From Planctomycetota bacterium (lineage in GTDB: Bacteria; Planctomycetota; Phycisphaerae; Phycisphaerales; SM1A02), in the NCBI GenBank assembly GCA_003671055.1, contig QWPV01000025.1, forward strand, positions 1 through 34,378: a stretch of 34,378 nucleotides of DNA, read 5' to 3'. A program made the position numbers and the translations under genes. The notes below the pieces were generated by a model that was given only the letters and a program-made list of their open reading frames with translations, did not search any database and was not told the DNA's origin. Positions within the stretch are counted from its first letter, which is position 1. Each line of letters opens with the position of its first letter. Shown here piece by piece: positions 5,555 through 23,349 of this stretch.

Positions 5555-7318
5555 ATGGCACGCAAGAACAAGAAGAAAATAGGCGAGATCTTGGTCGATT
5601 TCGGTGTCACGACCGCGGACAAGGTCCAGCTTGCTGTTGCGGAAGCGAGTAGGACTGGTAAGCGCACCGGCGAAGCGCTCGTCGAACAATATGGTGTGCT
5701 GGAGATTGACGTTGCGCGCGCACTTGCGGAGCAGTTCGGGCTCGAGTTTCTGAACCTCGCTCGAGCAGAACAAGCAAACCGTATCCAGCGATCGCTCATT
5801 CCTGAAGACATCATCCGCCGCTATCTCGTCCTTCCGATGGAGAAGAAGGGCAACGAACTCACGCTCCTCGTGCACGATCCACTCGATGTGGAGTTCGAGC
5901 AAACGATTTGCTTCCGTCTCGGACTTGATCGATTGCGTATGGCAGTCGGAAGCCGCGAGCAGATTCGCAGCCTTGTCGAGGGCGAGAAGTCATCGTCGAA
6001 GCCGAAGGGCCAGTTGCTCAGCGACTCGCTCGACAAATCTGTGGACAAGTCGGTGGATCGCTCGGTCGATCGTTCGGTCGACAAATCTATTGACGTCGAC
6101 GTGGAAGAAAGTCGCATCGTTCGACTCTGTGATCGCATCATTGTCGAAGCAGTGAATGGTCGCGCGAGCGATATTCACATTGAACCACGCAAGGATGGCG
6201 TGATGTTGCGCTATCGCATCGACGGCATGTGCATCGAGCGCGAGTTCTTTCCAAAATCACTGCAATCCTCGCTCCTTGCGCGCTTCAAGCTCCTTGCGGG
6301 CGTGAACATTTCTGAGCGCCGCATTCCGCAAGACGGTCGCATCAAGAAGATCATCGGCGAGAGCGGCGTAGATTTCCGCGTGTCGGCGTGTCCTGCAGTG
6401 CACGGCGAAAGCATCGTGTTGCGTATTCTTCGTCCAGACAGCGCGCGCATTGGTCTTGTGAACCTCGGCTTCGAGCAAGACAACCTCGATGTCTTCAACA
6501 AGATCATTCGCCGCCCCAACGGCATCTTCCTCGTGACCGGTCCGACTGGTTCCGGAAAGACGACGACGCTGTACTCCGCGCTTGACACGCTCAATCGCCC
6601 CGACAAGAAGATCATCACTGCTGAAGATCCAGTCGAGTACGCGTTCAAGGGCATCAACCAAGTCCAAGTGCGCGAGTCGATTGGGTTGACATTCCCAGCG
6701 GTGCTTCGCTCGATGTTGCGTCAGGCACCGAACATTATTCTCATCGGTGAAATTCGCGATCGTGAAGTCGCGGATATCGCGATTCAAGCAGCGCTCACCG
6801 GTCACTTGGTGTTTTCGACGCTCCACACGAATGACGCGCCGAGCGCGATCACGCGTTTGATTGACATGGGCGTGAAGCCCTTCCTTGTTGCGAGCGCCAT
6901 TCAAGCCGTCATGGGACAGCGACTTGTTCGCATGTTGTGCGTCAAATGCCGCACGCCCGACACGGATCCCGATCCCAAGTTGCTCCGACTCGTGGGCATC
7001 TCTGAAGAGGAACGCTCGCTCGGCAACATCCACAAGGGTGTGGGTTGCCCGAACTGCGATAGCACTGGATACCGCGGTCGAAAAGCGATCTTTGAGCTGA
7101 TGGTCATGAACGCCGAGATTCGCGACCTTGCGTTCGGGCGCTCTAGCGTCTCCAAGATTCGAAATGCGGCGATCCGAGGCGGTATGCGAAGTCTTGTGTT
7201 CGATGGCAAGCGCAAGATCCTCAAGGGCGACACCACGCCGCTTGAAGTCGCGAACTTCGCGCAGATGGATGGATTCGATCCGAACGAGGTTGCTGGTTCG
7301 GGATCCCTTGATGATTGA
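5555..7318 (+). CDS. gspE: GspE/PilB-family assembly ATPase 1
   Basis: This hexameric ATPase family powers pseudopilus or pilus extension from the cytoplasmic face. The 587-residue protein has an N-terminal GspE/MshE-N type domain (about 8-150, starting IGEILVDFGVTTADKV) and then a short repetitive linker (160-180). The ATPase core has Walker A GPTGSGKTT (329-337), a DPVEY Asp box just after it, Walker B IILIGEIRD (394-402) and a His box TGHLVFSTLHTNDAPSA. A zinc finger is formed by C462/C465 and C498/C501, typical of GspE and PilB but absent from PilT. It opens the plus-strand pilus cluster, 58 bases before pilT. A second paralogue lies just beyond pilT. I cannot tell which of the two is the main extension motor. 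Confidence 0.95.
   Translation: MARKNKKKIGEILVDFGVTTADKVQLAVAEASRTGKRTGEALVEQYGVLEIDVARALAEQFGLEFLNLARAEQANRIQRSLIPEDIIRRYLVLPMEKKGNELTLLVHDPLDVEFEQTICFRLGLDRLRMAVGSREQIRSLVEGEKSSSKPKGQLLSDSLDKSVDKSVDRSVDRSVDKSIDVDVEESRIVRLCDRIIVEAVNGRASDIHIEPRKDGVMLRYRIDGMCIEREFFPKSLQSSLLARFKLLAGVNISERRIPQDGRIKKIIGESGVDFRVSACPAVHGESIVLRILRPDSARIGLVNLGFEQDNLDVFNKIIRRPNGIFLVTGPTGSGKTTTLYSALDTLNRPDKKIITAEDPVEYAFKGINQVQVRESIGLTFPAVLRSMLRQAPNIILIGEIRDREVADIAIQAALTGHLVFSTLHTNDAPSAITRLIDMGVKPFLVASAIQAVMGQRLVRMLCVKCRTPDTDPDPKLLRLVGISEEERSLGNIHKGVGCPNCDSTGYRGRKAIFELMVMNAEIRDLAFGRSSVSKIRNAAIRGGMRSLVFDGKRKILKGDTTPLEVANFAQMDGFDPNEVAGSGSLDD
6032..6094 (+). repeat. 12-base in-frame repeat encoding DKSV/DRSV tetrapeptides
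   Basis: Five units of Asp-Lys/Arg-Ser-Val/Ile plus a final Asp occupy residues 160-180 of ATPase 1. They sit between its N-terminal domain and its ATPase core. Units vary at synonymous sites (tct/tcg, gac/gat), so the array is not newly expanded. The second ATPase has no such linker. Confidence 0.85.
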
Positions 7319-7376
7319 AAGCGTTGAGTACCGGAACTCGCATTGAAGCGATAGTTTTCTAGCAAGATAGGTTCAC

Positions 7377-8492
7377 ATGTCCACAATTCAGATTGACCGT
7401 CTTCTCGACACGATCGTCCGCAACGGGGCGTCGGATCTCCATATCTCCATCGGTCGACCACCGACGATTCGGTTGCACGGCAAGTTGAAGAGTCTTGCCA
7501 CGAAGGTGCTTGAGTCTGACGATTGCACCGCATTGATGAAGTCAATTACGCCTGAGAAGAATCAGCAGGAACTTGCGGAAGTTGGCGGCACTGACTTCGG
7601 TTTCGCGTTCGGTAGCGCGGCACGTTTCCGCGCCTCTATCTTCCGTCAGCGCGGCGACATCTCGATGGTGCTGCGTTTGATTCCGAACAAGCTTCTGACG
7701 TTCGCAGAAATTGGTCTGCCGACGATTGTGCAGGATCTTTGCCGTCGTCCGCGTGGCCTCTTCCTCGTCACTGGTCCAACTGGTTCTGGAAAGTCGACGA
7801 CGCTCGCCACGATGGTGAATTTCATCAACGACGAATACGATCGACACATCGTGACGATCGAAGATCCGATCGAGTACTACCACTATCACAAGAAGTCCGT
7901 GGTGAACCAGCGCGAGGTTGGCCGCGACGTGCCGACCTTCTCAGAAGCATTGCGCCGCGTGCTCCGTTCGGATCCTGACGTCATTCTCGTCGGGGAAATG
8001 CGAGATCTCGAGACAATTGAGGCAGCAATTCGTGCGGCTGAAACGGGCCACTTGGTCTTTGCAACCTTGCACACCGCAAGCGCGTCGGGAACCATCAACC
8101 GCATCATCGACGCCTTCCCAACCACACAGCAAGCGCAGGTTCGCGTACAGCTGTCGACCTCGCTGATCGCAGTGCTCTCGCAGCAATTGTGCGCGCGCAC
8201 CGACAAGCCAGGGCGCGTAGCTGCTTACGAGTTCATGGTCGTCACGCCCGCCATCTCCAACCTTGTGCGTGAGAACAAGACTTTCCGCATCGACTCTGCC
8301 ATTCAAACCGGCAAGAAGTTCGGCATGCAATTGCTCGACACCCACCTTTGGGAACTCTATTCCAAGGGCTGGATTTCAGCTGAAGAAGCGGTCGATAAGT
8401 GCAAGGACGCAGGCGCCTTCAGCGAGAAAATCCATCGCTCCGGTGGCACGGTTGGACGAGCGGAACTCGACGAAGCGCACGACGCAACTTGA
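7377..8492 (+). CDS. pilT: PilT-type pilus retraction ATPase
   Basis: PilT depolymerises type IV pili and so drives retraction and twitching. The 371-residue length fits PilT. It starts with the PilT-like segment LLDTIVRNGASDLHISIGRPP and has Walker A GPTGSGKST (133-141). Walker B is VILVGEMRD (202-210). The diagnostic AIRAAETGH motif (217-225) is followed by LVFATLHTASASGTINRIIDAFP, a His box and C-terminal linker characteristic of PilT rather than PilB. It lacks the zinc-finger Cys pairs of the two flanking ATPases. Its presence argues that this cluster builds a retractable pilus, or that a T2S-like pseudopilus has acquired a retraction motor. The C-terminal 25 residues have no recognised feature. 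Confidence 0.95.
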   Translation: MSTIQIDRLLDTIVRNGASDLHISIGRPPTIRLHGKLKSLATKVLESDDCTALMKSITPEKNQQELAEVGGTDFGFAFGSAARFRASIFRQRGDISMVLRLIPNKLLTFAEIGLPTIVQDLCRRPRGLFLVTGPTGSGKSTTLATMVNFINDEYDRHIVTIEDPIEYYHYHKKSVVNQREVGRDVPTFSEALRRVLRSDPDVILVGEMRDLETIEAAIRAAETGHLVFATLHTASASGTINRIIDAFPTTQQAQVRVQLSTSLIAVLSQQLCARTDKPGRVAAYEFMVVTPAISNLVRENKTFRIDSAIQTGKKFGMQLLDTHLWELYSKGWISAEEAVDKCKDAGAFSEKIHRSGGTVGRAELDEAHDAT

Positions 8493-8512
8493 TGATTTCC
8501 GGCGCTCGTAAA

Positions 8513-8529
8513 CCTCCAATCATTGGAGG
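8513..8529 (+). promoter_or_regulatory. 17-base palindrome that includes a Shine-Dalgarno-like GGAGG
   Basis: CCTCCAA (8513-8519), TCA and TTGGAGG (8523-8529) form a perfect 7 bp inverted repeat. It lies 20 bases after the pilT stop. The 3' arm contains GGAGG, a strong Shine-Dalgarno sequence placed 8 bases before the GTG at 8538. As RNA the hairpin would hide that site. As DNA it could be an operator. Confidence 0.45.
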
Positions 8530-8537
8530 AAACGAGA

Positions 8538-8789
8538 GTGATCTCCACGACTCAATGCACAACAACTCTGCAGCACAAAACCGCTGCCACAGATTCCCTT
8601 GCCTGCACACCAATCCAAGAGTCCAATGATATTGTCCGTTTTCTTCGCGACTTCTACCTCCACCATCGCCGTATAGGACGGACACTTCAATGGAATGCAA
8701 GCGCTTCGTTGCATCTCTCGAAATGTTGTCCGCTGCTGACGTCTCGTGATCAATCGATGTGTGAAGTTTCTGCCTGCCTGACTGCCTAA
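8538..8789 (+). CDS. Possible small protein, unrecognised
   Basis: The 318 bases between pilT and the second ATPase gene hold one open frame with a good translation signal: GGAGG (8525-8529), then GTG at 8538. It would encode 83 residues with six Cys, ending 21 bases before the next ATG. I recognise no domain, signal peptide or membrane segment. Its codons look less biased than those of the neighbours, and several Cys and rare ATA codons argue against a real gene. The alternative is an untranslated spacer with a regulatory hairpin. Nothing else is visible in this gap. Confidence 0.22.
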   Translation: MISTTQCTTTLQHKTAATDSLACTPIQESNDIVRFLRDFYLHHRRIGRTLQWNASASLHLSKCCPLLTSRDQSMCEVSACLTA

Positions 8790-8810
8790 CTGTGTGAGAG
8801 ACCCTACGCC

Positions 8811-10556
8811 ATGCCGAATCTCCCCATCGAGGAACTCAAGGGCCGCCGAATCGGCCGCGCACTCATCAAGCTTGGAAAGGTGACGCGTGAGCAAGTGCAC
8901 GAAGCGCTCTCGCTGCAGCAGTCGACGAAGAAGGGGGAGCTGCTCGGTCGAATCATGATCGAGTTGGGGTTGATTTCCGAAGACGACCTCCTGATGGCGC
9001 TCGCTGGGCAAAAGGGGATTGACTTCGTTGATCTCTCCGCAGTGACGATTGACCCAGCCGTTGTCGAATCGCTTCGCCCAGAATCTGCGATCACCTACCA
9101 AGTGATGCCGATCGAGTTTGATGCGCAAGCGCGCAGCATCACGGTCGCGATGAAGAACCCGGAGAATTTCTCCGCGCTTGACGATCTCAAGATGCTGCTC
9201 GGATTCCGTCGCGTGAATGCGGTGGTCGCGCGCCCGGCTGAAATCGATGCACTCATTGCGAAGCACTACGCAGGCAAGAAGACTGACCTCGGCAAAGTCT
9301 TCGCCGAAGCAGCCAACGCGGAAGGCTTGAAGGGTCTCGCGAATCGCGGCGAATCCATCGACCTTGCGAATCTTGTTTCTGCTGCGGGCGACAACAAGAT
9401 TGTTGACCTCGTGAACCAGACGCTCATGATCGCGATTCGCGACAAGGCATCTGACGTGCACTTCGAACCATTCGAAGATGAGTTCAAAGTTCGCTATCGA
9501 ATCGACGGCGTGCTTTACGAAATGCATCCGTTGCCCAAGCACCTTGCGATGGCTGTGTGCAGCCGCGTGAAGGTCATGTCAAAGCTCGACATCGCTGAGC
9601 GACGACTTCCGCAGGACGGTCGCATCGAATTGACGATCGGTGATACGCCGATCGATCTTCGCGTCGCTGTGCTTCCCACGATGTTTGGCGAATCGGTCGT
9701 GATGCGTATTCTCGATCGCTCGAACGTGCAGTTGTCGCTCGACAAGGTCGGCTTCCGCCCTGATGAGCTTGAGAAGGTGCGCGGCATCATTCAGCGTCCC
9801 AACGGCATCGTGGTTGTCACGGGTCCAACGGGTTCAGGCAAGACGACGACGCTCTACGCCGCGCTCAACGATCTGAATCAACCCGATGTCAAGATCCTCA
9901 CCGCGGAAGATCCCGTGGAGTATGACATCGCTGGATTGATTCAGTGCCAGGTGAACACCGATCAAGAGTTGACGTTTGCGCGACTGTTGCGCTCGTTCTT
10001 GCGTCAAGATCCCGACATCATTCTCGTCGGTGAAGTCCGCGATCTTGAAACAGCGCAGATTGCGATTCAAGCATCCCTCACCGGCCACTTGGTTTTCACG
10101 ACGCTCCACACCAACGATGCGCCGAGCACGATTCTTCGTCTTGTCGATCTCGGCGTGGAGAGCTTCCTTCTCACCGCAACAATTGAAGCGATCATCGCGC
10201 AGCGCCTCGTGCGTCGTATTTGCGTGAAGTGCAAAGTTCCATTCGTCCCGAGCGAAGAGCAATTGCTTGAACTCGCGTTGCGACCCAACATGGTGGAAGG
10301 CCGCACGTTCTTCCGCGGCAAGGGATGCGACAGTTGCCTCAAGACTGGATACCGCGCGCGCATGGCGCTGTTCGAAATCATGCAGATGGACGACGGCATG
10401 CGCGAGCTCATCATGAAGCAAGCATCGACGACGGTGATTCGCAACGAAGCGAAGCGTCGCGGCATGCGAACACTTCGCGAGAGCGGACTGCTGGGCATTT
10501 ACGACGGACTCACCACGCTCGATGAAGTCGTCCGCGAGACGATCGTCGAGGATTAA
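8811..10556 (+). CDS. gspE: GspE/PilB-family assembly ATPase 2
   Basis: This is a second 581-residue extension-type ATPase. The N-terminal GspE/MshE-N domain begins at about residue 10 (GRRIGRALIKLGKVTREQV). The core has Walker A GPTGSGKTT (338-346), Walker B IILVGEVRD (403-411) and the His box TGHLVFTTLHTNDAPST. Zinc-finger Cys pairs are C471/C474 and C506/C509. It resembles ATPase 1 closely through the whole core, including matching RPNGI and TAEDPVEY segments, but lacks the DKSV linker. Standing directly before the platform-protein gene is the usual position for the cognate motor (gspE-gspF, pilB-pilC), so this copy is the better candidate for the extension ATPase of the pseudopilins downstream. 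Confidence 0.95.
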   Translation: MPNLPIEELKGRRIGRALIKLGKVTREQVHEALSLQQSTKKGELLGRIMIELGLISEDDLLMALAGQKGIDFVDLSAVTIDPAVVESLRPESAITYQVMPIEFDAQARSITVAMKNPENFSALDDLKMLLGFRRVNAVVARPAEIDALIAKHYAGKKTDLGKVFAEAANAEGLKGLANRGESIDLANLVSAAGDNKIVDLVNQTLMIAIRDKASDVHFEPFEDEFKVRYRIDGVLYEMHPLPKHLAMAVCSRVKVMSKLDIAERRLPQDGRIELTIGDTPIDLRVAVLPTMFGESVVMRILDRSNVQLSLDKVGFRPDELEKVRGIIQRPNGIVVVTGPTGSGKTTTLYAALNDLNQPDVKILTAEDPVEYDIAGLIQCQVNTDQELTFARLLRSFLRQDPDIILVGEVRDLETAQIAIQASLTGHLVFTTLHTNDAPSTILRLVDLGVESFLLTATIEAIIAQRLVRRICVKCKVPFVPSEEQLLELALRPNMVEGRTFFRGKGCDSCLKTGYRARMALFEIMQMDDGMRELIMKQASTTVIRNEAKRRGMRTLRESGLLGIYDGLTTLDEVVRETIVED

Positions 10557-10642
10557 ACGAACGCACGACTGACCTAATACTTCACTCGATTCTTCACGAT
10601 TCTTTAGGCGCACCTGCCGCACCCCGCACGAGACTCCTTTCT

Positions 10643-11944
10643 ATGTCGAACTACACCTACGAAGCGATGAATGCCTCCGGGAAGAGCCAGAAGGGCAATG
10701 TGGAGGCGAACTCCGCAGACGAAGCCGCGAAGAAGATTCGCGAGCTCGGCTTCTTTCCTACCGCCGTTCGAGAGCAGAAGGTCAAGGGCGGCTTTGGTGA
10801 AGACGGCAAGAAAGCTGTTACGCGCGACGCGAAAAAGAAGAAGGGGTTCAACCTCAATCTCTCCTTCGGCGGCGTTTCAACGAAGAAACTCACGCTCTTC
10901 ACGCGCCAACTCTCAACGCTGCAAGACGCAGGTCTTCCGCTGCTCCGTTCACTCCAGATCCTTGAGAGCCAGCAACGGCCGAGCTCGTTGAAGACCACAT
11001 TACAAGGCGTCTGCGAGTCAGTCGAGAGCGGCGAAAGTCTCTCCGAGGCGATGCAGAAGTTCCCTCGCTGCTTCGATCGACTCTATTGCAAGATGGTTGC
11101 GGCAGGCGAAGTCGGCGGTGTGCTTGACACGATTCTTCAGCGACTCGCGGACTTCATGGAGAAGGGCCAACGACTGAAGCGACGCATCACAGGCGCACTC
11201 ATCTATCCGATCGTTGTCATCTTGATTGCCGTCGCAATCGTGACGGGCATCATGTACTTCGTCATCCCGAAGTTCCAAGACATCTTCGAGGACTTCGATG
11301 TCGAGTTGCCTGGTCTCACCGTGTTCCTCATTGACGCAAGTAAGTGGGTGGCAGGTACATCAACGAAGGATCAAGCGATTCCTGGAGCAATCTGGATCGC
11401 ACTGTCTCCAGTGCTCATCTTCCTGTTTTTCAAACTCATTCGGAAGACAGAGTTCGGGCGCGCGGCGACTGATCACATCATCATTCGTATCCCTGTGATT
11501 GGGACGCTCGTGCGCAAGACAGCAGTCGCGCGCTTCACTCGAACGCTCGGCACGCTCATCGCTGCAGGTGTTCCGATTCTCGAAGCGGTGCTCATCACTC
11601 GAGACACCTCTGGAAACTACGTCTTCGAGAAGGCGCTCACGAAAGTGCATGACTCGATTCGCGAAGGTGAATCGTTTGCGACGCCGCTGCGCGAATCGAA
11701 GGTTGTGGATGCAATCGTCGTGAACATGATCGACGTCGGTGAAGAAACCGGCGATCTCGATCTGATGTTGATGAAAGTCGCGGACAACTACGACGAAGAA
11801 GTGGATGTTGCGGTTGCCAGTTTGCTCAGTTTGCTCGAGCCCTTCATGGTTGTCGTGCTCGGTGGCATCGTGCTCATGATTGTTCTTGCGCTCTTCCTCC
11901 CACTTGTTTCCATGATCGAGTCGGTGTCGAGTCCCAAGAAGTAA
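10643..11944 (+). CDS. pilC: PilC/GspF inner-membrane platform protein
   Basis: This family couples the cytoplasmic ATPase to pilin polymerisation in the inner membrane. The 433-residue protein starts with a short domain (YTYEAMNASGKSQKGNVEA). A charged linker follows, then the first T2SSF repeat (about 85-210) opening with KKLTLFTRQLSTLQDAGLPL, and a second repeat (about 285-415). Likely membrane segments are at GALIYPIVVILIAVAIVTGI (about 185-210), at the Ile/Leu-rich WIALSPVLIFLFFKL, and at the C-terminal VVVLGGIVLMIVLALFLPLV. Length and layout are normal for the family. An 86-base gap separates it from ATPase 2, and a strong hairpin follows its stop codon. Confidence 0.95.
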   Translation: MSNYTYEAMNASGKSQKGNVEANSADEAAKKIRELGFFPTAVREQKVKGGFGEDGKKAVTRDAKKKKGFNLNLSFGGVSTKKLTLFTRQLSTLQDAGLPLLRSLQILESQQRPSSLKTTLQGVCESVESGESLSEAMQKFPRCFDRLYCKMVAAGEVGGVLDTILQRLADFMEKGQRLKRRITGALIYPIVVILIAVAIVTGIMYFVIPKFQDIFEDFDVELPGLTVFLIDASKWVAGTSTKDQAIPGAIWIALSPVLIFLFFKLIRKTEFGRAATDHIIIRIPVIGTLVRKTAVARFTRTLGTLIAAGVPILEAVLITRDTSGNYVFEKALTKVHDSIREGESFATPLRESKVVDAIVVNMIDVGEETGDLDLMLMKVADNYDEEVDVAVASLLSLLEPFMVVVLGGIVLMIVLALFLPLVSMIESVSSPKK

Positions 11945-11954
11945 ATGAAATGAC

Positions 11955-11984: not shown

Positions 11985-11993
11985 CTCTGTCCG

Positions 11994-12002: not shown

Positions 12003-12008
12003 CCATTC

Positions 12009-13046
12009 GTGCTCCACGTCGACCGACAAGCTCAAGCTCGATCACTCGCATTCCGTGCGAGGGCGGCTTTCACGCTCACGGAACTGCTCGTGACCATCGG
12101 CATCGTTGTGCTGCTCCTCGGTGTGTTGAGTGCAGTCGTCGGTGTCGGCACCAAGCGTGCGCAGATGGCGAGCACAAGTTTCTTGATGAGCAGTCTCTCG
12201 CAGGGAATTGAAACCTTCCGAGGCGATCACGGCTACGTACCGCCCGTTCTTGGATTGCGTGATTCGTTTGCGAATGGACAGGGGAGAGATGTGCTTGTGC
12301 CACCGGTGACCGGCGCCAATCAGAACTACTACTCCGTCACAACCCTCGCGGAGTTTCTACTCGGCTACGGTGATCGACTCAGCGATGGCTACGGCGGCGT
12401 TGGGATTCCAGCGACGAATACGCCAGGCTCGCGCGAAACTCCAACGCTAGGTTTCCGATCGCCAACGAGTGATGGTTGCTGGGGCGCGATTGACAACCCA
12501 TGGCTCACGACGCTTCCTCAATCAGTGCGTGGATATTTCCGCTATCGCAATCCGATGCGGATGTCGACCAATCCATTCGCATCGGGGAACACCGCGCTGC
12601 TCGAAGGTCGCGTGTACGGACCCTACATTGATCTCAAGGACGAGTCTTCACTCGCAGGACTCGCAGGCTTCAACACGGATGGCTCGCCGAATCTTGTGAT
12701 GCAAGATCAAGGCGTCGCGAACTTCGATGCGCTGCCCAAAGTAATCGTGGATTACTGGGGCAAGGCGATTCACTACTACCGACGACCCTATCTCGGCACG
12801 GACTTGAAAAGCCCAAACCTCCAACTCAACCTCGGCGACATCATTGCCCTTCGCCCAACCCAATTCCGTGAGACTGAAACTGCGATCGGAATCGCGGACG
12901 CGAACAACGACGCCTCAACTTCATCAGCGTTGATCGGTGCAACTTTTGCACTCTTCAGCGCGGGTCCTGACAAGCGCTTCAACGGCGTCGTGCGCGCAGA
13001 CAGTGACCTCTTCAACGCAGACAACCTTGTGGAGACTGCACGATGA
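12009..13046 (+). CDS. Prepilin-like protein 1 (GspG-like C-terminal motif)
   Basis: This is a pseudopilin candidate of 345 residues, started by GTG behind a good Shine-Dalgarno site. A basic leader of 20 residues ends at Ala20, followed by the prepilin signature FTLTELL with Phe21 as +1 and Glu25 as +5. A hydrophobic helix then runs to about residue 45. The -1 residue is Ala where Gly is usual. The globular part is large for a pseudopilin. Near the C-terminus FALFSAGPDKRFNG, followed by DLFNADNLV, resembles the calcium-binding loop of major pseudopilin GspG. It may be a major or minor subunit. It is the first of six coupled genes and overlaps the next by ATGA. Confidence 0.85.
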   Translation: MLHVDRQAQARSLAFRARAAFTLTELLVTIGIVVLLLGVLSAVVGVGTKRAQMASTSFLMSSLSQGIETFRGDHGYVPPVLGLRDSFANGQGRDVLVPPVTGANQNYYSVTTLAEFLLGYGDRLSDGYGGVGIPATNTPGSRETPTLGFRSPTSDGCWGAIDNPWLTTLPQSVRGYFRYRNPMRMSTNPFASGNTALLEGRVYGPYIDLKDESSLAGLAGFNTDGSPNLVMQDQGVANFDALPKVIVDYWGKAIHYYRRPYLGTDLKSPNLQLNLGDIIALRPTQFRETETAIGIADANNDASTSSALIGATFALFSAGPDKRFNGVVRADSDLFNADNLVETAR

Positions 13047-14856: not shown

Positions 14857-16133
14857 GCCTACGACGCAACACAACGACAACGCGACGGCGTGCATCGAGC
14901 GGTTTTTCGCTCGTTGAGATGCTCCTCGCCATCTTCATCCTCGGCATCGGTGTGATCTCGATCTCCTCGCTCTTTCCTGCGGGCATCGTGATGCAGCGGC
15001 AGTCAACCGACGACCTCCTCGGTCCCGTCGTTGCAAAGAACGCGCTCGGCATGCTTCGCGCGCGACTCACGCAATCGGACTTCGGCGGCTTCCAAGAATT
15101 CAATTCGACGCAGACACCGCTGCAAGTGCAGCCGATTGGTGCGGCAGCAATTCGCACGATCGAAGGCGACTGGCCTTGGATGCGCCCGAGTTTCTTGTTC
15201 GACAATCCGAGCACCCCATTCGACGAAGGTGCAATCGACATCTTCTCGAGCGAGTTCACACGCGCGCAGATTGGTCTTCCAACCTCCACGTTCAACTTAC
15301 GCGCTTCTGAACTCTTCCTCGGTTGGCCACTCGCAAGCCGCGTGTTGTGGGGGATTCCTTACAACACGACGAAGTATCCGCTCTACGGCCGAGTGCTCGC
15401 GAACGGACCAGCTGCAGCGGGGACGAATGTGCTTGCCCAGCGCTTGATTGAACCCGATGTCATGATCACTTCACGCGAGCGCTACTGGCCGCAGGGCAGT
15501 GAGATGGGACCGAACGGAACGATTGCGCAGCGACCACAGTATGTGTGGGAGTGCATGTTCCGTCGCTACGGCGGCAAAGTGCAAGCCTGCATCTTCGTGT
15601 ACCGCGTGCAAGCACCAGGTGGTGAAGCGAAGCAATACTCCGTCGCGCCTGCGGAGATCAACAGTGCGTTTCCGCCGAACACGATCTTGACCCCATTCAC
15701 GCCGCCACTGCCAATGTTCTACGCAGCTCCAGCCGCTGCAGGTGGACAGACGTGGCCTGATTCACTCGCGACTCCGCTTGTTCCTGCAGACGAGATTCCC
15801 AACACGCAGGGTGGTACCACAGGCTTTGCGCCGCTTGATATCACGAAGACCTTTGATGATTGGCAGAGCCCAGGACAATTGTGGGTCGACAACAACGCGA
15901 TCATTCACAAGGTGCTCGTTGGTCGCAAGACGCAATACGAGGGGCGCGTGAAATTGACGCGACCAATCGCGCGTTCGATCGATGCGCCAATCAACGGCGT
16001 GCAACCAAACGCTGTTGCGCCAGCTGCAGGCTTCTGGCCGTCGCGCTGCATCGGTGGCATTTGGTTCTTGCCTGGTCGCGATGCAAATGGCAATCAACTC
16101 ATTCCTGTGTACTTGACTGTGGAGGAACTGTGA
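14853..16133 (+). CDS. Prepilin-like protein 4 (GspI/PilV-like)
   Basis: This 426-residue protein has a basic leader ending at Gly17. The prepilin signature FSLVEMLLAIFILGIGVISI follows, with Glu22 at +5, and a PilV/GspI-like start to the helix. Downstream is a large domain without recognised motifs. The -1 residue is the usual Gly. The ATG lies in an ATGA overlap with the preceding stop. Position in the gene order (after a GspH-like and before a GspJ-like gene) supports a minor pseudopilin of the GspI class. The C-terminal domain is much longer than in proteobacterial GspI (about 120 residues), so any receptor or substrate function is unknown. Confidence 0.82.
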   Translation: MSLRRNTTTTRRRASSGFSLVEMLLAIFILGIGVISISSLFPAGIVMQRQSTDDLLGPVVAKNALGMLRARLTQSDFGGFQEFNSTQTPLQVQPIGAAAIRTIEGDWPWMRPSFLFDNPSTPFDEGAIDIFSSEFTRAQIGLPTSTFNLRASELFLGWPLASRVLWGIPYNTTKYPLYGRVLANGPAAAGTNVLAQRLIEPDVMITSRERYWPQGSEMGPNGTIAQRPQYVWECMFRRYGGKVQACIFVYRVQAPGGEAKQYSVAPAEINSAFPPNTILTPFTPPLPMFYAAPAAAGGQTWPDSLATPLVPADEIPNTQGGTTGFAPLDITKTFDDWQSPGQLWVDNNAIIHKVLVGRKTQYEGRVKLTRPIARSIDAPINGVQPNAVAPAAGFWPSRCIGGIWFLPGRDANGNQLIPVYLTVEEL

Positions 16134-17749
16134 TGCGATCGAACTCCACACGAACGAGCGGCTTCACGCTCACTGAACTTCTCGTTGCGATCACGGTGCT
16201 CATCGTCGTGCTCTTCGCGACATCGCGCATCTTCTCGAGCGCGTCGAAAGTTGCGGGCGCTGGTGAAGCGACATCGAATGTGCTGCAGACTGCTGCAGCG
16301 ATTGAGTCACAGATTCGCGCGGACTTCGCGCATCTATCGCGCGATGGATTCTTCGTTGTGCAATGTGTCGAGGCAGCAGGAACGCGCGCCGATCAGCTCG
16401 TGTTCTTTACGCAGCGGACCACGGCGACGCAACAATTCATGGGCTCTCGCGAATCAAGTGCGACCAACGCAGTCGCGTCGACATGGCTGGCGGAGAGCGG
16501 CGTTGCGCGTGTGTATTACGGTCACGGCGTTTCATCGCCTAACCTTGGCCCCGATCAAGATACGGATGGATTCAATAACGGAACCTGCGACGGCAGTGCA
16601 CTCACGCCGTGGGCATCCACAGCATCCGCAGGCAACGCGACGATTGATGCGCATCTCTGGTCTGCAGGAACAACCCAAGGTTCGAAGGGACAGCCGAGCA
16701 TTCCGAAGGAGAACTGGCCACTGCTTCGCAATGCATTGTTGCTTGCGAAGGACGGCGCAGCTCCATCGAGTGCTGACTTGGTGTACGCCGCGAACTTCAA
16801 GAATGCAACGAGCGTGCTCTCCACCGAGAAGCAACGACCGTGGGTTGATGCGTGGTTCACTTCGGGCAACCCGAATCCAACCGGCTCAAGTTACGACCCA
16901 ACATGGCTGAGTGGTCGCGTGGATGTTTGCACCATGACGCTCGGTGATATCAAGAAACAAATCACCGGCAGCGGCTTGCTTCCATTCATTACTGGAACGA
17001 CCGCGAACCCGTGGACGGACAGCCAGCGCACGCGCATGTTGCAGTGCGTGGGGTTCCCGGATCCCTTCACTAATGGCGGCGCGAAGTCGCAACCCTTCTT
17101 GCGCTATCCGCGTGCTGAGAAAGCAACGCCGAGTATGGGACGCGCGGACAGCATGCTCGCGTCATCCATCTTGAGCGCGAATTGCAGTTCATTCCGCGTG
17201 GAGTGGACATGGAGCGATGGTGTTGGTCGCGGTCCGTACGGTTTAGGAATGACTGTTGCAGGTCGAAGCCAGACTCCGTGGTTTGGACTCTGTGATCAAC
17301 CATGCCCAATTTATGGAATCACCGCGAACAATGTGCGACCCGTCTCGAACCACGCGAACTATGTGGGCGATCAAAATGGTGAGTACTACGGCACAATCGA
17401 TGCGCCGCTCGTCTTAGAAAACTCCGCGATTCCTCCCGATGGCGCATCGCCTGTCGGACGAATTGTCTGTTGCGCCGAGGGCGTTCTCAATCTCGATGGC
17501 TCAGATTGCAGACTGCAACAGAAGCCTGTGTGGCAACTCCCGGCCGCGTGTCAGCCCGCGATCATGTACGCCGCAGCGTTTGGCTACAACAGCACCGACC
17601 CAAGCGTGAGTCTAGGGATTTCGAGCGGCAACGGACCCTACACGCCGTGGCCCTCAGCCGTCCGCATCACCATCAAGTTGCATGATCCAAACGGTCGCCT
17701 CGAAGGTGGCCGCGAATTTCAGTTCATCGTGGAGTTGCCACGACCATGA
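16133..17749 (+). CDS. Prepilin-like protein 5 (GspJ/PilW-like)
   Basis: The ATG at 16133 overlaps the preceding TGA by one base (TGATG). It is followed by a 10-residue leader ending in Gly and the signature FTLTELLVAITVLIVVLFATS with Glu15 at +5. The frame is open far upstream to 15860, but that part is antisense-like sequence over the previous gene and is rejected. The protein has 538 residues. Its early region (EATSNVLQTAAAIESQIRADFAHL, followed by VQCVEA and a QLVFFTQRT strand) resembles GspJ/PilW. An Asp-rich loop GPDQDTDGFNNG begins at about 139. Like its neighbours it is oversized. The expected role is a minor pseudopilin next to the GspK-like protein at the pilus tip. Confidence 0.84.
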   Translation: MRSNSTRTSGFTLTELLVAITVLIVVLFATSRIFSSASKVAGAGEATSNVLQTAAAIESQIRADFAHLSRDGFFVVQCVEAAGTRADQLVFFTQRTTATQQFMGSRESSATNAVASTWLAESGVARVYYGHGVSSPNLGPDQDTDGFNNGTCDGSALTPWASTASAGNATIDAHLWSAGTTQGSKGQPSIPKENWPLLRNALLLAKDGAAPSSADLVYAANFKNATSVLSTEKQRPWVDAWFTSGNPNPTGSSYDPTWLSGRVDVCTMTLGDIKKQITGSGLLPFITGTTANPWTDSQRTRMLQCVGFPDPFTNGGAKSQPFLRYPRAEKATPSMGRADSMLASSILSANCSSFRVEWTWSDGVGRGPYGLGMTVAGRSQTPWFGLCDQPCPIYGITANNVRPVSNHANYVGDQNGEYYGTIDAPLVLENSAIPPDGASPVGRIVCCAEGVLNLDGSDCRLQQKPVWQLPAACQPAIMYAAAFGYNSTDPSVSLGISSGNGPYTPWPSAVRITIKLHDPNGRLEGGREFQFIVELPRP

Positions 17750-20700
17750 GTGCGTTGCTTTCTCCTTCCGTTCGATTGGAGCAATCCATGCCACGAAGTC
17801 AGTCTCCCATGCCCATGATCCGACGCGCGAACACCATCGTGTTTGTGATGTCGATCTTGGTGCTGCTCGTCATCATCGCAACTGCATTCGTCACGCGCGC
17901 CAAGGCTGGTCGCCAGATCGCGACTGCGCAGCAAGCCGCAAGTGGCCGCGATGGTCGATCGGACAGTCTTTCGCGTGATGTTGCGAAGGAGATCAGCGCA
18001 AGTCTGTTTCCGAAACCGATTGATCCCACGGATGCGTTTGGTCAGCTCGATAATACGACAGTTCCGCCGACCCGCGTGGGCAGTGCTTCATGGCCGCGTC
18101 TGTCGACTCCTCAATTCGCGACCCGCTACGAGACCGATCGTGATCAGGACGGCGATGCATTTCCAGATTTCCCAACCAACACCACCGCATATGAAGTGAA
18201 ACCGTGGACGAACTGGCCTGATGATTTCCTCTCGCCTATCAGCGCATGGCCGCGCGGCGTGGGCGCGCCAAATGGGCAACTTCTGACACTGACGGGTGCA
18301 CCCCTTGGTGATTCAAATCCCTACGGCAATCCAGGCACTGGTGACACTCGCTGGCTTCGATCAACCGAACCACAGCGCGCAGACTTCAATGCTGACGGCG
18401 TTCCTGATGGCTTCTCACACTGGACGCATTTGACGTGGCTTCCGAGCGCGAACAATGCGTGGCGTGCAGTGCGTGACATCGCGGACATCGAAGGCACGAC
18501 GCTCATCAACCTCAATCAGAATGATCTCACGAAGGCGTTCGGCGTTGCTGTTCCCTATGAACAATGGCTCTCGAATGTTCCGCCCGTTGGATTCTCGTCA
18601 ACTGCAGATCTTCTGACGAATTTCCCAACGCGTCGCGATCAGTGGTTCGCGCCTCCGAACGCAGCGGCGTGGTACGGACTGAACTACCGGTTGCCTTCCG
18701 CGTTGCCGAATTTCTTCCAACTCGCTGCACTCGGTCCTGCGAGCGATGAGTGGCAGCCCAACACCGCGCGACAGATGATTGGTCGCACCTTCACCGATGC
18801 AGATGGCGATGGCTACACCGACAGTTTCTGGTTCCTCGCGCCAAGCCCCGTTGATCGCGGCGTGCGCACGATTGTTGGCGTGTCGATCATCGACAACTCC
18901 TCGATGCTAAATGTGAACATCGCAACCAAGGGCGGCTTCTTCGAGACCGCAGTGAACGCGACTGGCATCACTGTTCCTGGTGGTGGGTCGACGGGTCAGA
19001 CGCCCGCGGATCTTGCATTGGTGTGGAGTAAGAACGACCTCCAAAATCGTTCCGGCGTGCTTGATTCACCTATCAACACCGCAAACGATTACATCGATCC
19101 CGAGGCGATTCCGTACTTCCCCGATTACTTCCCTTCGCTGTGGAGTGGACAGGGCGCGCAGCTCTTCAAGATCGGCAACGGCACATCGATCAACGCATCA
19201 GTAGACTTTGGTCGCGGTCCAAACGGCGTGCAATCAGGCTCCGCAGATTTGTACGGCGATCTCGCGACTGTCGCCGCTGGCGCACCTGACTTCAGCGTGC
19301 TCCGTTCGCTCGGCATCAAGGACATGAATGCTGCGCAGCTGACACTCGCAGCAAATCTTGGTTACCCCATCGTCGACCCTGAAGTGTTCGCGGTCTTGCC
19401 AGGTGAAGTCGGTCGATTCGAGCTTCCCTCCGAGCGACTCGCATGGTTCAAACTCGCAGGCATCGATCCAAATGGTTCACTCGCATCGACGCTTGGTCTC
19501 CGTCCCTTCTCGACTGCTGACGAAATTGAACTTCGCATGGCTGCGGGTTTGAATCAACCTTACACACAGTCTCGACTTGAGCAAGCGTTTAGCCTCTTCA
19601 GCCCAACCGTGCTTGCAGGCAATGCGAATCGTTTTCAAATGCTTCGCGCAACCGTGCAGCGTGAAGAAGCGAATCGCGAACTTGAACCACTTTCACAGCG
19701 CGAGTTGCTCGTCGACATGCGCCATCGCATCACGACCGTCAACGGCGCGCGCAACGATCAACTTCCAGCATGGCTCTGGCCAACGCCGTACTACAACGCA
19801 ACGCGCAATTACCTGCATCCACGCAATGCAGCGATCACGAACACTTCGGATCCGTTGTACGTCGCGTTCAACGACGAGAACCGCGCTGAGTACGCACGAC
19901 AGAAACTGAAGGTCGACCTTCGTCGCCCGATGTTCGCGCTTGAAGATGGAACAGCAGTGTCTCCCGGAGTGCGAGAAGCACGCGAGCAGCAGTGGCGCAA
20001 CGACCTCGCGCGTTTGCTTGAGCGTTCACTGTCTTTCGCAGGCGATGAAGATGCAGATGACGTCGCAGATCACTGGCACAGCTACCTCGATTCTGCGGAT
20101 CCTGCCGATACGGGTGTGGATCCCGAAAAGCAGTACAACAAGACGCTCTCCATGATCGCGAGTTACTCCGCGAATCTGCACTCTGCAAGTGATCAACCAA
20201 CGAAGGCTCCCGCAACAACAGCGACCGTTTGGTACGACCCTCCAACAGTTGCGACGCCCGCAAGCGGCAACCCTGAGAGTCAGTTCAAGCCTGGTCTCGA
20301 TCACGTTGTGTTTGATCCGATCAAACAAGGTCGTTTCTACAACGGCATGGAGAAGCAGCCGTTCATCATGGAAGTGTTCATCGGCGTTGTGTATCCGAAG
20401 AGCAAGATCGATCAGAATGATTGGAACACGGAGTTCGCGATGTGCGGACCAGTCGAAGCGATCTCGAGTCCGCAATTGAAGTTGCCCACGACTGTCGCTG
20501 ATGGCGGCGGCGAGACTTTCGTTGATGACACATCAAAGCCTGCAGCAGTCATCGCGGTGCAGATCGCAAATCCTTACGACACGCCACTGCCTCTCTTTGA
20601 CTTCGAGATTCAGTTCTACGGTCGTTCCTACAGTTTTGCGACAGGGCAGTATGGATTCGTTCCTGTGTTGCCACCTGCAACGAGCGATGGACCAGCGACT

Positions 20701-23349
20701 GCGATCATTTACGCAGTGCCTGATTACATTTACTCCGACTCAACTGAAGCCGCGACGCCGCCAGCGAATCCATCGAGCGCGCAGACCGAACTGTTGATCT
20801 CGCAAAAGATGCTTGACTTCCTCGATATCGAAACTGCACCGACTGACCTTGACGGCGATGGCGATGCGAACGGCACATTCAATGTGAAGGAATACATCGG
20901 TCTCTACGACAGCCACAGCACAGGCGCAACAGATCCGTTCGACGCGCAAGATCGCACACTGGTGTTCAACGCAACAGGCTCATGGCACTGCAAGCAGAAT
21001 GATCCGATCGCGGCAACGTATCAATCGTTTTTCACCGAGCCTGTGACGCTGGTGCGACGCGTCGCGACTGCAGGTGGCATCGTGCGCATGGTGGTCGATC
21101 GACTCGAGAATGATGTCTCGGGCGATGAAGATAGTTTCCGCGCGGAAGTGCGTCGACTCTTCACCGATCCATCGCTGACGCCTCCAGCCAAGAAGTACAA
21201 GTGCCGGATGGGCGAGAAGGAAGTAGATGGCATTCGCATCGGGCAGAATGACTTGTTCATGACCTATGCGCGTTGTGCGCGACCATGGATGTGGGATCCG
21301 CAAAGTTGGGTACGCAATCCAGCAGGGCAATGGGAATCGCTCGCGCAAACCGCGAATGCAACTTCCATCTGCTCACGCGATGTTGATAGTTGGGAGATCA
21401 ATCCACGCTACGTGTTCTCGACACACTCAGTGCCGATTCGCAGCGGAACCGTTTCAGCGGCAGGCGTGGTGGGTCGTCCATGGGACGGCATCATCAGTGG
21501 CGGCGATGAAGAGTTCGTGGGCGATGCGATGACGATCCTTGCTGCCGATGATCCTGACAGCAACGCAGGCTACGGCAGTGGTCCCAAGCGCAGCCTCTGG
21601 CCACGCACTGCATTCATGGACATCTTTGGTCGCAACATTCGTGCGAAGCCAACCTTCTTCTCGATGCAAACTGTGACAGCGGAAGAGGATTGCAGCAATC
21701 CAAATCCAGGCACGGTGTTCGACGCGGTCTACACAGATGGCTCGGGGCCGCTGCCGTTCTTGCGCAATGCGGAAACGTTTGGCGCAGTGATTGATCCAGG
21801 CTCGTACGGCATTGGGCATGCGCGCATCACATGGAACAGCACCCCATACGACGTCGTCGTCGGAAACAAAGGTGCATCCGATGCGGACTGGAAGCGTTGG
21901 CTCGACAACAATGTCGCTCCGGGCGCGGATCAGTATCTCTCGCTGCGTGGTCCACTTCAGTTGACACAGCGCGATGATGACTTTGAACAAGTGGGCGAAG
22001 TTCTTGATGTCTTCTTGTGGGGACATGTGTACGAGAATCCAGGCAACGCGCCAACGTGCGTCGCAACTTTCTCTGAGATCATGCTCAATGCGGATCCACG
22101 CAGCGAATTCCCAGCCGGAAAGGGCCCATTCGTTAATCGCTTGCATGCGCGCGCTCCTGGTGAGCAGAACGTGTACGACAACTCCGGAGCGTTGCTCGTT
22201 GAAGATTTCGGCACGCAGGTTCTGGGTGCGCGTTGGGACTACCGACACGATCCACCGGAACTCAGTTTGTCGTTCATCCCTGGTCAACCAGCGCTACCGA
22301 TGGGAGTCTCGTGGCTCGAAGCACTTGTGTGCGACGGCTACGGTCGCGGCACGCTCGATCGCAACGGTGACAATCTCGTCAACGGGATTGATGATGCATG
22401 GCTCGAACGCCGTCGGTTCGCACTCGCGGGTGATTTCTTTGGCACTAAGACGCCTGGTCTGATCAACATCAACACAGCACCTCTTGAAGTGCTGCGTTCG
22501 ATGCCGTTGATGACGCGGCTTCCGAAGTACGACCTCACCAACGCGCTGCTGCCGTGGGTGTATGTTCGCGTGCCGGATTCAATCGTGAAGTATCGCGATG
22601 GAACCTCCGCGACCGACAGCGCAGGCAATGCCCTTATTACTGATGTGATTCGACCAAGCACGGTGCTTCCAGGCGACATGCCGAGTTACCTCGATCGTGG
22701 ATTGACGCAAGCCGAACTCGTCGGTGCGGGAAATCCTGCCGCGCTCTTCCCTGGCGCGCCTCGTTTCTATCCTGGCATGCGTTCGGAGAAGGGCTTCGCA
22801 ACTCCAGCAGAGTTGCTGCTCATGCGGCGCACGGGGTTCATTGATCCAACCATCGAAGTGAATGACCTTAGTATTCGACAGAGTTATAGTTCACAGTTCT
22901 TCGCGCTTGATCCCTATGACTTGACGAATACAGCGCGCGATCCTGGCGAGTTCCTCGACCTTGCGATCGATCAAATCCCTGGCTATCGCTTCTCGGCTGA
23001 TCGACAAACGCCGAAAGCACGCTTCGCACCCACCGACACACTGCAAGCGAGTTTCCCTGCGCTCTTGAATCTTCCGGTTCGTTGGGATGAACCACTCGGT
23101 GATGCTGAAGATGCAACCCTTGCGTACAAAGCGATCTCCAATCTCGTGACCACGCGCAGCGATGTGTTCACTGTCTATCTCAAGGTGCGTCAGGTCAAGC
23201 AAGACCCAGTGACCCGTAAGTGGGACGCCACCAAGGCAGAGTATGTCATCGATGACACGCGGTATGTGATGGTGGTCGATCGCAGCGAGTGCAACGCGCC
23301 AAGTGATCAGCCCAAGATTCTGTTCTTCGAGAAGTGCTCGACGAACTGA
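17746..23349 (+). CDS. Giant GspK-like minor pseudopilin (1867 residues)
   Basis: GspK caps the tip of T2S pseudopili and is normally about 300-350 residues. This one has 1867. A basic leader (RRAN, about 26-29) precedes a hydrophobic helix (30-48, IVFVMSILVLLVIIATAF) that lacks Glu at +5, as GspK does. Near the C-terminus LININTAPLEVLRSMP (1572-1587) and EKGFATPAELLLMRRTGF match the GspK pattern. The final part (DVFTVYLKVRQVK, then DTRYVMVVDRS) looks like a closing beta domain. Asp-rich loops occur at 131-141, 213-221, 351-359 (DADGDGYTD), 1034-1040 (DLDGDGD) and 1538-1550. They resemble EF-hand or thrombospondin type 3 calcium loops. The start overlaps the preceding stop as ATGA. The roughly 1200 residues between helix and C-terminal motif are unrecognised. 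The gene is the last of the cluster, and a terminator follows. Confidence 0.82.
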   Translation: MSALLSPSVRLEQSMPRSQSPMPMIRRANTIVFVMSILVLLVIIATAFVTRAKAGRQIATAQQAASGRDGRSDSLSRDVAKEISASLFPKPIDPTDAFGQLDNTTVPPTRVGSASWPRLSTPQFATRYETDRDQDGDAFPDFPTNTTAYEVKPWTNWPDDFLSPISAWPRGVGAPNGQLLTLTGAPLGDSNPYGNPGTGDTRWLRSTEPQRADFNADGVPDGFSHWTHLTWLPSANNAWRAVRDIADIEGTTLINLNQNDLTKAFGVAVPYEQWLSNVPPVGFSSTADLLTNFPTRRDQWFAPPNAAAWYGLNYRLPSALPNFFQLAALGPASDEWQPNTARQMIGRTFTDADGDGYTDSFWFLAPSPVDRGVRTIVGVSIIDNSSMLNVNIATKGGFFETAVNATGITVPGGGSTGQTPADLALVWSKNDLQNRSGVLDSPINTANDYIDPEAIPYFPDYFPSLWSGQGAQLFKIGNGTSINASVDFGRGPNGVQSGSADLYGDLATVAAGAPDFSVLRSLGIKDMNAAQLTLAANLGYPIVDPEVFAVLPGEVGRFELPSERLAWFKLAGIDPNGSLASTLGLRPFSTADEIELRMAAGLNQPYTQSRLEQAFSLFSPTVLAGNANRFQMLRATVQREEANRELEPLSQRELLVDMRHRITTVNGARNDQLPAWLWPTPYYNATRNYLHPRNAAITNTSDPLYVAFNDENRAEYARQKLKVDLRRPMFALEDGTAVSPGVREAREQQWRNDLARLLERSLSFAGDEDADDVADHWHSYLDSADPADTGVDPEKQYNKTLSMIASYSANLHSASDQPTKAPATTATVWYDPPTVATPASGNPESQFKPGLDHVVFDPIKQGRFYNGMEKQPFIMEVFIGVVYPKSKIDQNDWNTEFAMCGPVEAISSPQLKLPTTVADGGGETFVDDTSKPAAVIAVQIANPYDTPLPLFDFEIQFYGRSYSFATGQYGFVPVLPPATSDGPATAIIYAVPDYIYSDSTEAATPPANPSSAQTELLISQKMLDFLDIETAPTDLDGDGDANGTFNVKEYIGLYDSHSTGATDPFDAQDRTLVFNATGSWHCKQNDPIAATYQSFFTEPVTLVRRVATAGGIVRMVVDRLENDVSGDEDSFRAEVRRLFTDPSLTPPAKKYKCRMGEKEVDGIRIGQNDLFMTYARCARPWMWDPQSWVRNPAGQWESLAQTANATSICSRDVDSWEINPRYVFSTHSVPIRSGTVSAAGVVGRPWDGIISGGDEEFVGDAMTILAADDPDSNAGYGSGPKRSLWPRTAFMDIFGRNIRAKPTFFSMQTVTAEEDCSNPNPGTVFDAVYTDGSGPLPFLRNAETFGAVIDPGSYGIGHARITWNSTPYDVVVGNKGASDADWKRWLDNNVAPGADQYLSLRGPLQLTQRDDDFEQVGEVLDVFLWGHVYENPGNAPTCVATFSEIMLNADPRSEFPAGKGPFVNRLHARAPGEQNVYDNSGALLVEDFGTQVLGARWDYRHDPPELSLSFIPGQPALPMGVSWLEALVCDGYGRGTLDRNGDNLVNGIDDAWLERRRFALAGDFFGTKTPGLININTAPLEVLRSMPLMTRLPKYDLTNALLPWVYVRVPDSIVKYRDGTSATDSAGNALITDVIRPSTVLPGDMPSYLDRGLTQAELVGAGNPAALFPGAPRFYPGMRSEKGFATPAELLLMRRTGFIDPTIEVNDLSIRQSYSSQFFALDPYDLTNTARDPGEFLDLAIDQIPGYRFSADRQTPKARFAPTDTLQASFPALLNLPVRWDEPLGDAEDATLAYKAISNLVTTRSDVFTVYLKVRQVKQDPVTRKWDATKAEYVIDDTRYVMVVDRSECNAPSDQPKILFFEKCSTN

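Follow-up and report, generated by a model that had tools for sequence, protein, structure and literature searches.

A conserved ten-gene locus of Phycisphaerae combining two PilB-type motors, PilT, one platform protein, and a giant GspK-like protein: a candidate retractable type IV filament

We analyzed a 34,378-nucleotide stretch of DNA from a Planctomycetota bacterium (contig QWPV01000025.1 of assembly GCA_003671055.1; hereafter, the window), which is contig C19 of a 100-contig, 2.85-Mb genome that is 95.8% complete. Positions 5555 to 23349 hold ten genes, all on the forward strand, that encode two extension-type ATPases (PilB1 and PilB2) with a retraction-type ATPase (PilT) between them, one inner-membrane platform protein (PilC), five prepilin-type proteins (P1 to P5), and a giant protein, K. 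The order of these genes is conserved across relatives, and the two PilB-type motors form separate clades. We regard it as probable that the locus encodes a single machine: a type IV filament of the type IVa pilus (T4aP) kind that would be retractable, driven by two extension motors and PilT, with a bulky tip built on giant K. The parts are of known kinds; the novelty lies in their fixed combination, in which a pair of PilBs, PilT, and a single platform go together with pilins of increased size and a giant K. An original prediction, made from the letters of the window, had listed the ten genes in this place, strand, and order; all of the open reading frames (ORFs) were found, and families and motifs agree. 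The genes are as follows.

5555..7318, forward strand: PilB1, first extension-type ATPase, 587 aa, with an MshEN N-domain and two CxxC pairs (T2SSE E 8.4e-122; MshEN 48.8 bits)
7377..8492, forward strand: PilT, retraction-type ATPase, 371 aa (T2SSE E 5.1e-54; TIGR01420 452 bits vs. cut-off 319; AISNLVRE)
8811..10556, forward strand: PilB2, second extension-type ATPase, 581 aa, with an MshEN and c-di-GMP-type N-domain (T2SSE E 1.9e-136)
10643..11944, forward strand: PilC/GspF inner-membrane platform, 433 aa (T2SSF E 3.8e-64, two stretches)
12009..13046, forward strand: P1, GspG-like pilin, 345 aa, AFTLTE, C-terminal DYWG..YYR...SAGPD...DN (TIGR01710 GspG E 0.0011, 19 bits, below cut-off; alignment of 34)
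13043..13867, forward strand: P2, second GspG-like pilin, 274 aa, AFTLLE, C-terminal AWGNP...SAGPNGK...DDNIYS (N_methyl above cut-off; weak ComGE, GspH, and GspG matches below cut-offs)
13864..14856, forward strand: P3, putative GspH/FimU-type minor pilin, 330 aa, AFTLVE (N_methyl 33.7 bits; below the cut-offs of Verru_Chthon D, at 38.4 bits, and GspH, at 34.3 bits)
14853..16133, forward strand: P4, putative GspI/PilV-type minor pilin, 426 aa, GFSLVE (N_methyl 26.5 bits; PilV TIGR02523 28.7 bits, below cut-off)
16130..17749, forward strand: P5, GspJ/PilW-type minor pilin by position, 539 aa, GFTLTE, GTG start overlapping P4 (marginal matches; precedes K in relatives)
17746..23349, forward strand: K, giant GspK-like putative tip protein, 1,867 aa (low-confidence homologue model; C-terminal profile in class genomes)

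Four-base overlaps link the last six genes (P1 to K), a pattern as in a translationally coupled operon; upstream of this block the intergenic gaps are, in order, 58, 318, 86, and 64 bases.

Conservation in Phycisphaerae and Beyond

Locus order was read in two sets of relatives. The first consists of the best 80 of 466 loci by similarity to one PilC (the named loci), a nonrandom sample labeled for the most part as Phycisphaerales, Phycisphaeraceae, or other planctomycetes, and the second of 20 stretches from relatives; the two overlap, in that L075/L157 and L071/L085 are very probably the same contigs. Counting required at least 6.5 kb of upstream sequence for the motors and at least 9.9 kb of downstream sequence for K, thresholds set in this analysis. 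Among the named loci, the order PilB1-PilT-PilB2-PilC is present in 41 of the 49 with enough upstream sequence and K in all 36 with enough downstream sequence, while the 20 stretches show PilC in 19, the same motor order in 9 of 10, and K in 17 of 17. Exceptions to the motor order include L084, L086, L113, L136, L156, and L159; L087 was tallied as lacking PilB2, yet direct reading of the locus shows PilB2 in place. These counts answer the question of conservation that the original prediction had raised, and a hybrid made of chance neighbors is rejected because the gene order is conserved across relatives.

A profile of the K C-terminus matches 142 of 148 genomes of class Phycisphaerae, though some of the weakest of these matches (those with E up to 8e-4 or with frames of about 530 aa) could be ordinary GspK, and K was matched in 56 of 61 genomes, the source genome included. 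All five class genomes examined outside the order show PilT-PilB2-PilC-prepilins-K, preceded by PilB1 in four; the fifth locus starts at a contig end. In a sample of the phylum, 54 of 294 genomes match the K profile, those outside the class mostly weakly, and two such matches that were read (L174 and L175) are ordinary GspK proteins of a type II secretion system (T2SS). A family outside the class, f32, has the complete ten-gene order in all three matching genomes, with K frames of 1,569 to 1,612 aa. Median identity to the window proteins is 60 to 75% for the motors and platform and 29 to 38% for the prepilins and K; these medians are taken over 10 to 17 relatives per gene and exclude matches that score below 60 bits, and for PilB1 and PilT they take in paralogues from loci without these genes.

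Motors and Platform

PilC scores 214.7 bits against T2SSF (cut-off 25.2), which identifies it as a platform protein, and misses the GspF equivalog by 25 bits. PilT passes the cut-off of TIGR01420 (the PilT/PilU family), as expected for a type IVa pilus; this is the sole NCBIfam motor model so passed at the locus, and the AISNLVRE of PilT is presumably a version of the AIRNLIRE signature. Walker A, Walker B-like, and His-box motifs are retained in all three ATPases, and the Asp box of PilB2 reads DVHFEP. PilB2 also passes the cut-off of the c-di-GMP motif model NF053729 (45.9 bits vs. 38; PilB1 reaches 33.4), so control of PilB2 by c-di-GMP is possible.

In a tree of 85 ATPases, PilB1 (26 rows, SH-aLRT 98), PilB2 (27 rows, 100), and PilT (25 rows, 86) each form one group; the tree was made by a quick method without bootstrap, is midpoint-rooted, and has several long branches. 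All three groups include f32, and those of PilB1 and PilB2 also include family f50, whose locus is described below. Because separate clades span the class, f32, and f50, the PilB1/PilB2 pair is older than their split, unless it was transferred. The tree and the conserved gene order together uphold the earlier claim that a pair of extension-type motors, along with PilT, accompanies a single platform.

Two genomes (G029 and G038) have the PilB1-PilT pair on a different contig from PilB2-PilC, with PilB1 and PilT still adjacent. Because this pair stays together where it is split from PilB2-PilC, we read PilB2 with the platform as the likely main extension motor and PilB1 as tied to PilT. The same two genomes, together with the five platform proteins of the source genome (five genes, ten domain matches), could instead mean that PilB1 and PilT serve another pilus (e.g., through the platforms on contigs C46 or C8) and that the machine consists of PilB2-PilC-prepilins-K only. 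We find this highly improbable, since PilB1-PilT directly precedes PilB2-PilC in the 41 and 9 loci counted above and in the f32 genomes read, and since PilB1, there without PilT, also directly precedes PilB2-PilC in the f50 genomes read; the layout common to the class, f32, and (without PilT) f50 argues for one machine. The original prediction had named, as a finding that would refute it, a PilT belonging to a separate, unlinked pilus in close relatives. This is rejected for most loci: PilT lies between PilB1 and PilB2 in the same 41 and 9 loci, and it is beside PilB1 in both split cases.

Enlarged Prepilins and the Giant K Protein

All five prepilins carry F[TS]LxE after Gly or Ala, that is, a class III leader with Glu5, and the genome has one A24 prepilin peptidase match, with A24_N (both domains). 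The Pfam N_methyl cut-off is passed by P2 to P4, while P1 and P5 reach the cut-off of no prepilin model in either library; all P5 matches are below cut-off (NF007848, the best, at E 0.0035; Verru_Chthon C at E 0.0067; GspJ at E 0.077). The assignment of P1 to K as G-G-H-I-J-K is tentative, because it draws on gene order and weak matches. The AlphaFold model of P1 (pTM 0.81) has a long pilin helix and strands at the C-terminus, most of the extra residues falling between the two, and a Protein Data Bank (PDB) sequence search with P1 matched pilins over the N-terminal helix only. The proteins of the genome's own T2SS-like cluster measure 139 (G), 172 (H), 157 (I), 371 (J), and 473 aa (K), with starts called mechanically, so P1 to P5 and K are about 1.5 to 4 times larger than these counterparts; the original prediction had put the enlargement at two to five times the usual size.

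K retains three recognizable parts, the N-terminal helix, the NINTA hairpin motif, and the C-terminal strands, and the sequence between them is variable.

17821..17925, forward strand: leader end and hydrophobic helix of K, RRANTIVFVMSILVLL..., without Glu5 (motif reading)
22456..22506, forward strand: helix-hairpin-helix-like motif of K, GLININTAPLEVLRSMP (NINTA; all 16 aligned rows share G, N, and N)
23134..23346, forward strand: C-terminal strands of K, TTRSDVFTVYLKVR...RYVMVVDRS (all 16 aligned rows share R, S, D, F, and D-R; the homologue model shows strands here)

The mature protein would start at RRANTIVF. Among 51 K frames with a cleavage-like motif, a few of these matches being spurious, position +5 is Glu in 1 and Leu in 30; GspK likewise lacks Glu5. 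K falls below every family cut-off, including that of GspK (PF03934, 13.9 vs. 24.2 bits) and TIGR02600 (18.8 vs. 332 bits). Because K itself (1,867 aa) is too long to fold, a 1,045-aa homologue (L152) was modeled from an alignment in which many rows end at locus ends. When 98 chains were realigned to this model, the top three were of the GspK/XcpX type: 3ci0_K (Z 8.6, rmsd 13.5 Å, 188 aligned), 9a1f_T (Z 7.0, rmsd 9.2 Å, 204 aligned; taken as a K subunit from its chain size), and 5vtm_X (Z 6.2, rmsd 13.0 Å, 187 aligned). This low-confidence model suggests that the fold of K may be GspK-like. Residues 489 to 592 of the model form a possible beta-sandwich (Z about 5) that is too weak to name. 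Homologue alignments, the locus survey, and the K homologue model all support the earlier suggestion of large outer domains on the fiber or tip proteins.

A PDB sequence search with the K C-terminus returned no GspK and two matches only (E 0.33 and 0.43). The better of these insignificant matches, a human EEP-domain protein, touches the NINTA motif, and T4aP with PilT power transformation in other bacteria; the locus might thus encode a competence pilus for DNA uptake, with K as a tip that binds DNA via the helix-hairpin-helix. This is very unlikely in our view, as ordinary GspK carries the same NINTA-type motif and the rest of K is strongly variable. We know of no DNA role of GspK.

Parts Encoded Elsewhere in the Genome

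As predicted, no secretin, PilMNO, or prepilin peptidase was found among the window ORFs scanned with Pfam, nor any GspC, GspD, GspL, or GspM. The rest of the genome yielded four secretins, none linked to the locus, a PilM-fusion operon, and the single A24 peptidase. Contig C46 (76 kb; L017-L020) carries three further type IV filament clusters: (i) PilM/secretin/PilB/PilC, (ii) PilC-PilT-prepilin-793-aa protein, and (iii) a T2SS-like cluster. Copies of PilM lie on C10, C46, and C35. The C10 region (L021:7173-12652) reads PilM-PilN-PilO-251 aa-PilB, with no platform, pilin, or secretin recognized in the 16 kb read. On C35 (L189:3366-5534 onward), a 722-aa PilM_2 fusion is followed by a 477-aa PilO-like protein and a membrane protein, X; we read the C-terminus of the fusion as PilN-like and the next protein as PilO-like, with no Pfam match in either part or in X. 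In relatives, the fusion has about 680 to 780 aa, the PilO-like protein 450 to 517, and X about 640 to 700 with an N-terminal hydrophobic stretch. The order of the three is kept in all seven genomes read (C35 and L190-L195), and the fusion is found in 145 of the 148 class genomes, as a single match in 141 of them. The C35 operon is the best candidate for the alignment-complex partner of the locus.

Three of the four secretins are encoded within, or as a continuation of, clusters that have platforms of their own (C46 (i), C46 (iii), and C8/C88). The fourth, on C14, has 1,002 aa and weak TPR matches, and no pilus gene was recognized within 16 kb around it. Because it alone stands without a pilus cluster, it is by elimination the best lead for a secretin of the locus, an argument limited by the C46 (ii) cluster, which likewise lacks a secretin. 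In G056, a protein weakly similar to the C14 secretin is encoded about 3.7 kb from the PilMN operon.

The C8/C88 secretin is a giant of about 4,800 aa. Its copy in G003 (L179:2193-16631, forward strand) has 41 Secretin_N matches and one secretin domain, and that of the source genome is cut by contig ends into L187:3-9050 (reverse strand, C8) and L026:3-5525 (forward strand, C88), which match residues 28 to 3001 and 2961 to 4793 of the G003 copy. Secretin-bearing frames of at least 2,000 aa occur in at least 35 of the 61 genomes and reach 5,086 aa, and none of the titles listed by a literature search aimed at planctomycete secretins reports such a protein. On C8 the giant secretin comes after a cluster that has a platform, prepilins, and a GspK-like protein of its own; as a partner of the locus it was set aside, since its two parts lie with or continue that cluster.

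The Proposed Machine

For the division of labor between the motors, the roles in shaft and tip, the partners, and the function, we infer the following scheme. The prepilins would be processed by the one A24 peptidase of the genome. PilB2 acting on PilC would extend the filament, PilB1 would be a second, specialized extension motor partnered with PilT, and PilT would disassemble the filament. The GspG-like P1 and P2 may form the shaft, and P3-P4-P5-K (GspH-I-J-K-like) a tip complex with giant K as its cap. The alignment complex would come from another locus, most likely the class-wide PilM-PilN-like fusion/PilO-like/X operon, and so would the secretin, for which C14 is the best lead. The fiber may then grip a surface or macromolecule, and retraction would pull the target in; ligand binding is suggested because the engine is conserved and the outer domains are fast-changing.

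Several observations count against a single T4aP-like machine. Both PilB1 and PilB2 miss the equivalog cut-offs of PilB (TIGR02538, the best model for both, at 545 bits for PilB1 and 622 bits for PilB2; cut-off 676) and GspE (TIGR02533, next best, the two motors scoring 580 and 516 bits in no stated order; cut-off 630). The operon is without any small major pilin. Fold matches to the P1 model are weak (best Z 4.9), with nothing significant in Foldseek; the K homologue model is poor (mean pLDDT 53, pTM 0.52; structural rmsd 9 to 13.5 Å), and Foldseek alone gave it no significant match. The candidate partners of the locus proteins are proposed from genes, and co-occurrence of PilMN with K (3 of the 148 class genomes have K only and 6 have PilMN only) is uninformative because both are near-universal. 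Finally, in family f50 (4 of 6 matching genomes read), the locus reads PilB1-PilB2-PilC, three prepilins, and a K of 862 to 947 aa, with PilT absent from the operon.

Two side observations concern these f50 genomes: all four have two PilT-type genes side by side elsewhere, and two of their loci (L167 and L169 of L167-L170) have two extra genes, possibly for signaling proteins, between PilC and the prepilins.

The missing small pilin, the GspG-type C-terminal motif in P1 and P2, the GspK-like K, and the G-H-I-J-K order would also suit a T2SS-like pseudopilus confined to the periplasm, which would act as a piston for secretion, stay inside the cell, and be reset by PilT. We consider this unlikely. 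The genome has a separate T2SS-like cluster on C46 (secretin, GspK, J-I-H-G, F, E), and no neighbor in the 20 relatives' stretches has the GspL or a secretin of the source genome as its best BLAST match (GspC and GspM were not among the queries). PilT is kept in nearly all loci, whereas T2SS frequently lose it (PMC6668835). In addition, outer domains about 1.5 to 4 times the size of those in the genome's own T2SS may exceed the secretin lumen. A retractable filament of the T4aP kind is the reading that we prefer.

Comparison with Known Systems

The original prediction took GspK as a feature that makes the locus a hybrid of pilus and secretion system. This was overstated: the T4aP minor pilins FimU-PilV-PilW-PilX are counterparts of GspH-I-J-K, so that type IV pili (T4P) have a GspK counterpart in PilX (PMC7248040). 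Given this parallel, a T4aP-like filament accommodates the G-H-I-J-K order together with PilT. A K of this size remains unusual for T4aP, since PilX of Pseudomonas aeruginosa is without the large insertion of GspK (PMC7248040). The locus shares with the type IVa pilus its ATPases of the extension and retraction types, a single platform, class III leaders on the prepilins, the H-I-J-K minor-pilin order (by position), and a PilM-containing operon and peptidase at other genome sites. It differs in its second PilB paralogue, GspG-like shaft candidates of 274 to 345 aa, an unlinked secretin, K frames of roughly 860 to 2,700 aa, and a PilM fused to a PilN-like part. With the T2SS (GspE-F-G-H-I-J-K) it shares the G-H-I-J-K order, GspG-like C-termini, and a putative GspK-like capping subunit, but PilT and a second PilB are present, no GspC/L/M/D was found in the window, K stays below the GspK cut-off, and the same genome has a separate T2SS-like cluster.

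Two distinct PilB-type motors serve one T4P in Acinetobacter, where TfpB is proposed as the initiator and PilB as the motor of processive extension (PMC8213720). At our locus, in contrast to that pilus (PMC8213720), both motors share an operon with PilT and PilC, and both fall below the TfpB equivalog (NF053534, 473 and 418 bits vs. cut-off 850). The Verru_Chthon cassette (TIGR02596, TIGR02598-TIGR02600) likewise joins prepilin-type proteins B, C, and D to a large protein A, whose model spans 1,296 positions, and P2 to P5 and K weakly match all four models, far below the cut-offs. Membership was rejected on the TIGR02600 score of K given above and on the absence of a match at E up to 0.01 in any of seven relatives' K proteins; a literature search found no paper that names this cassette. 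Modular pilins, with an extra module on or in the pilin that is presumed to be tip-exposed, are widespread, with GspK as an example and 860 residues in the most extreme multidomain case (PMC8179133). The locus differs from these (PMC8179133) in that the enlargement extends to five prepilins and K, within a single operon found across the class. The main text of a survey of type IV filaments does not mention planctomycetes (PMC6668835), and we found no description of this locus among the entries listed from the open-access literature (subscription papers and supplements were outside the scope).

Surroundings of the Locus

The locus is flanked by unrelated genes on the opposite strand, a DFP-domain gene on the 5' side and an SMC gene on the 3' side. 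One further feature lies just downstream of K.

23398..23416, forward strand: terminator-like hairpin and T-run, 3' of K (consensus match only)

The window has 21 such terminator-like sites against a shuffled mean of 18.8 (sd 4.7), which is no enrichment over shuffles. A tRNA-Leu at 3553-3638 overlaps the 5' end of a long MsrA-MsrB frame (2393-3631), so the start of that gene must be further downstream. At 27473-29416, adjoining the SMC gene, is a protein that resembles FlgI (flagellar P-ring) and has a weak HEAT-like part; no further flagellar gene was seen in the window.

Possible Function and Meaning

In Planctopirus limnophila, a species with established genetic tools, and in G. obscuriglobus, gold-labeled dextran was found mainly on pili-like fibers, and dextran accumulates in the periplasm (PMC5394234); a later paper describes pili as "fishing rods" (PMC8882080). 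No genes for dextran-binding fibers are named in the available text of either source (PMC5394234, PMC8882080), and we put the locus forward as a candidate genetic basis for "fishing rod" fibers. In the most far-reaching form of this idea, the locus would be a fishing-rod operon, a lineage-specific retractile pilus with two ancient extension motors and PilT, whose enormous, fast-evolving K tip binds glycans and whose retraction hauls polysaccharides to the cell, to be taken up into the enlarged periplasm. In this form we hold it to be unlikely. Published points also speak against the locus as the source of the fibers. The dextran data stem from species outside Phycisphaeraceae (PMC5394234), and Phycisphaeraceae are described as having fimbriae and no crateriform structures (PMC8882080). 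The pilus genes that Singulisphaera upregulates on chitin are mostly of the Tad type, plus PilT, so polymer-catching fibers may belong to another system (PMC11279305).

As a single-locus candidate that is class-wide and also found outside the class, the locus would turn the "fishing rod" idea into a knock-out experiment. It also provides an ancient natural example in which two extension motors accompany a single platform and a retraction motor, with a putative tip subunit, K, several times larger than the GspK of the genome's own T2SS.

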